DNA of 64,000 nucleotides, from positions 1 to 64,000 of the forward strand of contig NZ_BAJV01000016.1 in assembly GCF_000613885.1 (NCBI RefSeq). Reading direction: 5' to 3'. This document shows positions 16,861 through 19,180 of this stretch, in pieces. This DNA is from Asaia prunellae JCM 25354. Its GTDB lineage: Bacteria; Pseudomonadota; Alphaproteobacteria; Acetobacterales; Acetobacteraceae. Under the pieces are notes generated by a model. That model was not told the origin of the DNA and did no database searches. It saw nothing but the letters and a program-made list of their open reading frames with translations. How positions within the stretch are numbered: position 1 is the first letter of the stretch; each line of letters opens with the position of its first letter. Both the position numbers and the translations under genes were made by a program.

Positions 16861-17654
16861 TGAGGGGGCGTGTCCTGATTGTTGCCGGAAGCGACTCCGG
16901 TGGTGGTGCCGGTATTCAGGCTGATATCAAAACGGTCAGTGCTTTTGGCGGATTTGCCATGACTGCAATCACGGCCGTTACCGCCCAGAATACATTTGGT
17001 GTCACCAATATCGCCTGTCTGTCCCCTGGTATGGTGGCTGACCAGATATGTGCCGTCCTTGATGATATCGGAGCTGATATCATCAAAGTAGGAATGCTGG
17101 GCAATGCCGAGATTATGGAAGCTGTTTCAGACACGCTTGACCGTTATCCGGAAATACGCTGCGTGATCGATCCTGTGATGGTTGCGACGAGCGGTGCCAG
17201 ATTGATAACCAGAGATGGAGAAGCCGCTTTTCAGCGTCTTTTCAGGCATTGCTTTCTTCTGACGCCCAATCTGCCAGAACTGGAGATATTGAGCGGTCGA
17301 ACCCTCCTGACGGCTCAGGAAATGGAGGGAGCGGCTCTCGAAGTCAGGGAAGCTCAGAATATAAGCTGGATTCTGGCGAAGGGAGGGCATCTGCGCGGCG
17401 ACGAGGTCATCGATATTCTGCTCTCAGGTGAAAACAGAGAGCACTACAGGGACAAGAAAATCGATACGCTGCATACACATGGTACAGGCTGTACTCTCGC
17501 CAGTGCCATCGCTGTCTGTCTCGCACAGGGTGATACGGTCAGTAACGCTGTCAGACGTGGTAGAAACTATGTCCGTCAGGCGATCTTGCAGGCGCCGCCT
17601 TTCGGAAAAGGTAGCGCCAGACCAATGAATCACATGTGTCAGAAAGAAGGCTGA
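16860..17654 (+). CDS. thiD: Hydroxymethylpyrimidine (phosphate) kinase ThiD
   Basis: ThiD phosphorylates HMP and HMP-phosphate in thiamine synthesis. The 264-residue ribokinase-fold protein begins [20 protein letters not shown], a ThiD hallmark, and ends with the anion-hole motif [13 protein letters not shown]. The start codon uses the last A of the glmM stop (TGATG), so the genes are coupled. The 3' end overlaps the convergent ctrA stop by 16 nt. Confidence 0.94.
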
Positions 17655-18382
17655 AGAACAGAGGGGCTGATCTTTGCCTGTTCGTGACTGGCTTCCGTAG
17701 TAACAGCCTTGCTGTCTTCACGTAGGACATAGCCTCGCCCCCAGACGGTGCCAATCAGATGGCCTGCACCAAATTGCTGCAACTTTCTGCGCAACTTGCA
17801 GATGAAAACATCGATAATTTTCATCTCCGGCTCATCAATGCCCCCGTAAAGATGGTTCAGAAATGCGTCTTTTGTAAGGACATTGCCCTTGCGGAGTACG
17901 AGCAATTCCAGAATGGCATATTCCTTGCCAGTCAGCTGCACATGGTGACCGTCGATCGATGCACTTTTGGCGTTCAGATCAAGCGACAGGGGGCCAATTG
18001 TTACAACTGTAGTGCTGAAGCCACGCGACCGGCGCAGAACAGCCTGGAGGCGTGCGAGAAGTTCCTCTGAATCAAAAGGCTTGGTGATGTAATCATCTGC
18101 ACCAGCATGAAATGCCTTGATTTTGGCCTGAGCGCTTCCGAGGGTACTCAGCACAATAATCGGCGTTTGTATTTGTGTTTTACGAGCACGCCGTATGACT
18201 TCATTTCCCTCCATATCGTCCAGAGTAAGTTCGGTCAGGGCAAGATCATAATCATAATGGCGCAGCATATCGATTGCTTCATGCCCGGTATGAGCATGAT
18301 CAACAGTAATACCGCCCTGTCTGAGGGTTTTGATCAGAGCTTGAGCCGCAGCTTGATCGCTTTCCACAAGAAGGAGGCGCAT
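17639..18382 (-). CDS. ctrA: CtrA-type response regulator with Glu at the phosphoacceptor site
   Basis: CtrA is an OmpR-type regulator of cell cycle and motility genes in Alphaproteobacteria. The C-terminal winged helix is nearly canonical (TGKEYAILELL, FLNHLYGGIDEPE, KIIDVFICKLRRKL, VWGRGYVLR). The receiver domain keeps ADDYITKPF but residue 51 is Glu (codon GAA; ...LALTELTLDDMEG) where CtrA has its phosphorylated Asp. Residue 8 of the acidic pocket is Ser (VESD; usually EDD). In Caulobacter, CtrA D51E is a known phosphomimetic allele. I infer activity independent of phosphorylation. There is also a ~20-residue C-terminal tail. ATG 18382 gives exact alignment of residue 51; GGAG lies upstream. 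Length is 247 residues. Confidence 0.93.
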   Translation of the reverse strand: MRLLLVESDQAAAQALIKTLRQGGITVDHAHTGHEAIDMLRHYDYDLALTELTLDDMEGNEVIRRARKTQIQTPIIVLSTLGSAQAKIKAFHAGADDYITKPFDSEELLARLQAVLRRSRGFSTTVVTIGPLSLDLNAKSASIDGHHVQLTGKEYAILELLVLRKGNVLTKDAFLNHLYGGIDEPEMKIIDVFICKLRRKLQQFGAGHLIGTVWGRGYVLREDSKAVTTEASHEQAKISPSVLQPSF

Positions 18383-18832
18383 CTCATCAATCTCCAGGGT
18401 TGATGTTGCTGTGTTACTACCTAAGGTTGCTGTCAGCAAGCAAAATACGTTCTTGAAGCCAAAACATTTTTCAGAATTAGTAACGTGTTTTTAACGTGTC
18501 AATTCTAGTATTTTCTTGGATGATTCTGAAATTAACCAGAGGCTATAACAAATTTCTTTCTGTTGTTGGTGAAGGTATGGTGAAAATTTCCGTCCTGGAT
18601 AGTTAAAGTGATAACGAATTTTAACGAAACGGTGGAAAGTATTATCAATGTGCCCCATTTTCGTGACATGCGATACCCGTATAGGTTGTATGTCTGATCG
18701 GGCTATCGGCATGTATAAACGGTCAGGAAAACGGTCTTTCACAGATTATTTCGTTTGGTTCTCTGTATTGAGCGCGATCGGGCAGTAAGACGGCGATGGC
18801 CATTTGCGAACCGGGAACGAGGGGCAAGTGTC
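18383..18832. promoter_or_regulatory. ctrA upstream region with tandem TAACG repeats
   Basis: This 450-nt AT-rich gap separates ctrA (minus) from an unknown plus-strand gene. It contains two tandem direct repeat pairs: TAACGTGT at 18481 and 18492 (11-bp period), and TAACGAA at 18612 and 18622 (10-bp period). The first pair reads GTAA-N7-TTAAC, one mismatch from the CtrA box TTAA-N7-TTAA(C). It lies about 100 nt upstream of the ctrA start. CtrA autoregulation is the natural inference. No small gene is evident. Confidence 0.5.
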
Positions 18833-19180
18833 ATGTGGATCAGAAGAAACACGAGAATGCAGAGAGAGCGTGAACTGCTTGATCGTGCACAGGCATTGAT
18901 GGCTGTATTACGCCGTGAAACCAGTGTGCGTCTTACCCGACGCAATGCGGAGGCAAGAATCGTGGGGGCCGAACGTGCGGTCCTGGCATCCAATGACAGC
19001 GACAAGGCTGTAGAGGGATTTGTGAACTGGTTGCCTGAGGCGCGTGGCGCCATCGAAAAGGCACGCAGAGCCGAGCGTGAAGTCGCAATCGACGTCGCTG
19101 TGGCCTATCATGTATTTGTGCTGGCCAGGAATGCGTCGCTTCCCTCTGATGAATGTGAGGAGGGGGCCAATTCACTCTAG
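18833..19180 (+). CDS. Hypothetical charged helical protein divergent from ctrA
   Basis: I do not recognise this 115-residue protein. It is rich in Arg, Glu and Ala and looks helical throughout (RERELLDRAQALMAVLRR, EKARRAEREVAIDVAVA), with no signal peptide or membrane segment. ATG 18833 has GAGGGG 9 nt upstream, supporting a real gene. It is divergent from ctrA across the repeat-rich gap. Its size and coiled-coil look recall FliJ-like flagellar proteins, which can lie near ctrA in this class, but no sequence motif proves this. Confidence 0.6.
   Translation: MWIRRNTRMQRERELLDRAQALMAVLRRETSVRLTRRNAEARIVGAERAVLASNDSDKAVEGFVNWLPEARGAIEKARRAEREVAIDVAVAYHVFVLARNASLPSDECEEGANSL

Follow-up and report, generated by a model that had tools for sequence, protein, structure and literature searches.

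The CtrA of Caulobacter crescentus and Hyphomonas neptunium regulates its own gene, and in both organisms a site of the TTAA-N7-TTAA type lies upstream of ctrA; the available part of PMC7200025 gives TTAA-N7-TTAAC as the ChIP-seq consensus of Hyphomonas CtrA and places CtrA at its own promoter as well. In Caulobacter and Rhodobacter capsulatus, an engineered ctrA D51E allele is termed phosphomimetic (available parts of PMC4241560 and PMC6363796). Degenerate CtrA phosphorelays are described in the Rhodospirillales: the accessible text of PMC2877005 records clusters in which chpT was not found though cckA was present, and that of PMC8116508 reports chpT, cckA and divL in just 27-36% of Rhodospirillales genomes, with homologues possibly hard to recognise. 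A receiver substitution does not figure in the accessible portions of these two accounts, and the term D51 does not appear in that of PMC2877005. No report of a natural Glu51 CtrA was found in the open-licence literature as judged by title and abstract opening; in neighbouring papers, CtrA is named merely as a ClpP substrate (PMC12733265, part available), is absent from the main text (PMC13214618), or the relay is mentioned in general terms only (PMC9756655, part available). As to gene order, ctrA is divergent from fliI-fliJ in Gluconobacter oxydans and, by ORF likeness, in Tanticharoenia.

Here we describe the ctrA locus of Asaia prunellae JCM 25354, contained in a 64,000-nucleotide stretch of contig NZ_BAJV01000016.1 (hereafter, the window) from an assembly (G000) of 38 contigs and about 95% completeness. 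A gap at 18383-18832 separates ctrA, on the minus strand, from a divergent gene (Table 1). The locus resembles those of Caulobacter and Hyphomonas in having a CtrA-type box before ctrA, but its CtrA carries Glu51 and Ser8, and ChpT is not detected. Residue and position are identical to those of the engineered D51E alleles, although here Glu51 is natural, characterises a clade and is accompanied by further receiver changes; an apparently incomplete relay is shared with the Rhodospirillales systems above. Unlike in Gluconobacter, a putative FliJ-like gene alone remains beside ctrA, with fliI elsewhere or not found. We think it probable that the box in the ctrA promoter serves autoregulation by this Glu51 CtrA, likely independently of phosphorylation and in a genome with no detected ChpT.

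Table 1. Features of the ctrA locus, with positions in the window.
Feature	Position	Strand	Remarks
ctrA	17639..18382	-	247 aa, ATG at 18382; Response_reg and Trans_reg_C
Codon 51, GAA (Glu), phosphoacceptor position	18230..18232	-	By alignment to response regulators
Conserved 17-base block	18416..18432	-	Highest conservation in the gap, 16/17 columns
Proximal CtrA-type box (predicted), CGTTAAAAACACGTTAC	18480..18496	-	TTAA-N7-TTAC; 15/17 columns invariant in 7 Asaia and Swaminathania
Distal CtrA-type box (predicted), GTTAAAATTCGTTAT	18611..18625	-	TTAA-N6-TTAT; position kept in 8 species
FliJ-like gene (predicted)	18833..19180	+	115 aa, start uncertain; no fliI adjoining

A conserved CtrA-type box precedes ctrA

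Two copies of TAACGTGT lie 11 bp apart at 18481-18488 and 18492-18499, and TAACGAAT/TAACGAAA occur at 18612 and 18622, 10 bp apart. A sequence-only reading of the window had reported both pairs in the gap that separates ctrA from its divergent neighbour, likened the first to a pair of CtrA half-sites and suggested that they could regulate both genes. Both pairs are present as it described, the proximal pair falls inside the gap, and on the ctrA strand this pair forms TTAA-N7-TTAC, which matches 7/8 half-site letters of TTAA-N7-TTAA(C) with exact spacing and is one letter off consensus. Footprinting of the ctrA upstream region, as that reading had proposed, found the proximal box kept at about -113 from the ctrA ATG in 8/8 aligned species (seven Asaia and Swaminathania), so the objection that the repeats are not conserved in close relatives fails. 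In this alignment, which omits two Asaia genomes with split or frame-broken ctrA (G286 and G299), 15/17 box columns are invariant compared with 7.5% across -450..-130. The 15-base form GTTAAA(A/G)AC(A/T)CGTTA is present in 9/9 Asaia genomes, the copy in G286 lying near a contig end. Position is fixed within the genus and shifted in several related genera, for example to -127 to -129 in Gluconobacter versus about -112 in Asaia. These properties support the proximal pair as a near-consensus predicted CtrA site of the ordinary kind, in a well-supported position. GACTC occurs inside the box spacer in 4/8 species but not in the spacer of the window's genome; CcrM control of the gap was rejected, GANTC having no conserved place across species.

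The distal pair has N6 spacing in place of the N7 of a CtrA box. Footprinting upheld its position, which stays at -241 to -244 in all eight species, and its exact sequence in only half of them: GTTAA-N5-GTTA is exact in 4/8, and each of the other four is one letter off TTAA-N6-TTAA. The conserved block nearest ctrA is perhaps the core promoter or 5' leader of the gene. We note that ATACAACCT-type elements occur at 18673-18691 and 18416-18432, one of them at about -309 from ctrA in Asaia and Swaminathania, and that other bacteria, including Tanticharoenia, Acidomonas and some Gluconobacter, have a similar element near -50.

Spacing was compared across the Glu51 clade of CtrA described below, whose 74 rows take in Asp51 and Ala51 members and are in many cases Gluconobacter. 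Within 300 bp before ctrA and allowing at most one mismatch, N7 sites were found in 49/74 rows versus 21.6 ± 3.3 in shuffles; N6 was in slight excess (31 versus 22.3 expected), and N5, N8 and N9 showed none (23, 24 and 27 rows, respectively, versus 21.5 to 21.9). Averaging over 22 genus groups, made by manually merging named genera with group codes and keeping two rows singly, gave 11.3 for N7 versus 6.3 ± 1.8, and 7.6 versus 1.4 ± 1.1 in the band -135..-95, which was picked after seeing the data. In that band, the N7 site is missing from 14/22 genus groups, among them all seven Bombella-group (g33) and all three Saccharibacter-group (g101) rows. The 46 rows outside the clade show no N7 preference (N7, 6 versus 3.6 ± 1.7; N6, 8 versus 3.8; N5, 9 versus 3.6).

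The repeats might instead belong to the core ctrA promoter or be the site of another regulator (SciP, GcrA, MucR, DnaA or similar), their likeness to CtrA sites being incidental. Conservation is slightly higher in the block at 18416-18432 than in the box, and a scan of the gap, which found no terminator, gave two promoter-like matches (1.1 expected), directly upstream of the two boxes. However, a core promoter accounts less well than a CtrA site for the N7 preference of the clade and for the shift in position seen in Gluconobacter, and we consider this explanation unlikely.

CtrA carries Glu51 and ChpT is not detected

We take the CtrA numbering, Asp51 as the phosphoacceptor and the role of the acid pocket to hold for CtrA and its relatives. 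Among 103 NCBIfam matches for the Asaia protein, the highest score (311.1 bits, below the cut-off of 350) is to NF045991, whose name refers to Rhodobacter-type CtrA, and the closest CtrA among named records is that of A. siamensis (89% identity); an alternative TTG start at 18439 is unlikely. Alignment to response regulators of solved structure places Glu51 of Asaia CtrA at a position occupied by Asp in 1kgs and 4s04, and residue 8 is Ser in place of the acid-pocket Asp. From 152 loci, 125 distinct CtrA proteins were obtained, in 123 of which residue 51 was readable (Glu in 64, Asp in 55, other in 4); loci with partial ctrA (L039, L040, L163, L171 and L174) or an unreadable residue 51 (L150 and L170) were dropped before counting. 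The culturable relative Gluconobacter oxydans also has Glu51.

On a tree of 120 CtrA proteins (distant L164, L167 and L169 omitted; columns 8, 9, 51 and 101 masked), residue 51 changed at least five times, with 50/117 inner branches under the support threshold. In our reading, Glu51 would have had two origins, one in a large clade and the other in g82; g61 and g47 would have reverted to Asp, and two Bombella would have changed to Ala. Asp51 members inside the clade (G060 (L080), G046/G126 (L018/L019) and the g57 rows) and the two Bombella proteins with Ala51 (L162/L172) indicate that Glu51 is not strictly required. L080 and L018/L019 have Asp51 but an altered acid pocket. Mean identity to intact-site relatives (40 rows) is 72% in the DNA-binding domain, 87% in residues 183-203 and 53% in the receiver; the recognition region is conserved. 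A C-terminal Ala-Ala, the ClpXP signal of CtrA in Caulobacter, is present in 36/45 CtrA proteins with Asp8 and Asp51 versus 4/64 with Glu51; 14 more of the 64 end in another small or aliphatic residue followed by Ala.

A profile scan for ChpT (PF10090) matched 185 of the 299 genomes of the family, the set covered in place of the named reference CtrA records as such, and among 14 control genomes Caulobacter alone; at E ≤ 0.001, ChpT was absent from the window's genome. Receivers were tabulated for 91 genomes (90 after removing G300, outside the ChpT scan), drawn from 30 loci of the first locus search, one addition and 60 hand-picked among the matches listed; the table does not extend to lower-scoring CtrA matches or to the 63/299 genomes in which CtrA had no match at 1e-60. 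The phosphorylation site, scored as intact with Asp8, Asp or Glu9, and Asp51, is intact in 35/35 genomes whose ChpT match is clear (E up to 4.6e-5, list entered by hand). It is altered in 49/55 genomes without one and intact in 6; these comprise weak matches (G192, G009 and G219, 3/3 altered) and genomes with no match (46 altered, 6 intact). The association gives a genus-level Fisher p of 1.4e-11, which we do not take as proof because the rows share ancestry, and on the tree it comes down to three independent pairs and is not significant. A CckA search at 1e-70, with six candidates scored per genome, found no match in either G000 or G192; matches at 1e-71 to 1e-73, a paralogue-like level, came from five other Asaia. 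Among ChpT-positive genomes, G019 reached only 5e-72, and G007 and G052 had no match, so orthologues are poorly separated by this search. With Glu51, Ser8 and no ChpT match, Asaia CtrA appears to fall outside CckA-ChpT control.

Two readings extend from these observations. The first, which we put forward tentatively and at somewhat less than even odds, is that CtrA is constitutive across the clade, which comprises acetic acid bacteria and their relatives: Glu51 would mimic the phosphate, ChpT (perhaps also CckA) and the Ala-Ala degron would be gone, and self-binding at the conserved box would be the control that is left, making a one-component autoregulated switch out of a phosphorelay output. 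The second is that Glu51 reflects decay and mimics nothing, leaving a switchless DNA-binding CtrA and a box kept as a promoter element. Ala51 in two Bombella, the loss of Asp8 and the faster divergence of the receiver are in keeping with decay, but the 66 tree proteins without Asp51 comprise 64 with Glu and 2 with Ala (distant Gly and Ser rows were left off the tree) and the DNA-binding domain is conserved, which makes decay improbable.

The divergent gene and the second flagellar cluster

The sequence-only reading had left the divergent gene as an unknown. Pairwise similarity and gene position identify it as FliJ-like: its product and FliJ of G. oxydans share 33% identity across 91 aa, and the G. 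oxydans gene occupies the corresponding place beside ctrA. No Pfam match was found for it at E ≤ 1, and G. oxydans FliJ matches PF02050 at 1.5e-18; the Asaia protein has apparently diverged past Pfam detection. Its aligned 92-93 residues are stop-free in 8/8 species, and pN/pS in the eight is 0.07-0.35 with synonymous sites saturated. The gene is under purifying selection and is also found at the same place in L009-L014 and L038. FliF was searched for and not found in A. krungthepensis, A. bogorensis and Swaminathania, though all three keep the FliJ-like gene. The Asaia genomes have no fliI next to ctrA; in 6/9 of them it lies in another flagellar cluster, and in the others it was not found. 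The window's genome has FliF, and its other cluster encodes fliI, a weakly FliJ-like gene (18.7 bits versus a cut-off of 28.4) and a CtrA-like regulator; equating the absence of fliI beside ctrA with loss of flagella is wrong for this genome, with its relocated fliI and FliF.

This second CtrA-like regulator (C35:181100-181894 in G000, equal to L197:15098-15907) could be what reads the sites in place of CtrA. Its best NCBIfam match is likewise the CtrA model (148.6 bits), and its recognition region is similar to that of CtrA by eye. However, no match to it was found at 1e-45 in 4/10 Asaia and Swaminathania genomes (G228, G259, G008 and the 85% complete G299), all of which keep the box, and we therefore give it little credence as the reader. 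Its own receiver seems to be without the phosphoacceptor Asp (Response_reg, 17.8 bits versus a cut-off of 30.2).

Genome-wide counts and chance expectation

The gap holds five families of two-copy 8-base repeats, of which the proximal pair is one (D2), so repetition alone carries little weight. Among 5000 dinucleotide-preserving shuffles of the gap, GTTAA-N5/6-GTTA on either strand matched at least once in 74 and at least twice in 1, and two TAACG pairs at 10/11 bp appeared in 0; these figures are post hoc because both patterns were derived from the sites themselves. GTTAA-N5/6-GTTA occurs five times in the 3.18-Mb genome, two of them in this gap, compared with 26 for the reversed control pattern; the eight other Asaia genomes together have 68 versus 135, with G085 showing the opposite (12 versus 10). 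Across the window, TTAA-N7-TTAAC with one mismatch was found twice versus 2.6 expected, which is the chance level; the significance of the repeats comes from position and conservation and not from the window-wide count. Chance repetition in AT-rich intergenic DNA, for which that count and the number of repeat families speak, is rejected for the proximal box by its fixed position and sequence in congeners, and we regard it as negligible.

A genome-wide search for TTAA-N7-TTAA, also proposed in the earlier reading, located eight exact places, one beside flagellar-type genes by ORF reading only, but their neighbours are mixed and share no obvious function, and no regulon was drawn from them. The motif is scarce in this genome (8 places versus 30 for the reversed control pattern), a possible sign that stray CtrA sites are avoided. 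Elsewhere, GTTAAACTCACGTTA is exact in 5/9 Asaia genomes and lies 57 bp upstream of the same gene in the three contexts checked (L234 1501-1515, L245 and L257); in the window's genome, the gene after it encodes 5-aminolevulinate synthase (TIGR01821), which suggests CtrA targets beyond motility.

Discussion

The reading we favour is autoregulation of ctrA through the proximal box. The proximal repeat would be a CtrA site in the gene's own promoter, its two half-sites, one helical turn apart, being bound by a CtrA dimer, and CtrA on this box would activate or repress its own synthesis. The distal repeat could be a second, weaker site that may serve either the FliJ-like gene or an additional promoter of ctrA. 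We infer that CtrA with Glu51 most likely binds without phosphorylation, and the amount of CtrA, set at its own promoter, would then replace phosphorylation as the control point.

If this is correct, Asaia and its relatives would hold a natural counterpart of the well-known laboratory allele ctrA D51E, and a master regulator would be able to lose its phosphorylation switch while keeping its DNA sites. Whether autoregulation alone can run CtrA becomes testable in these bacteria, with the box as a ready readout.
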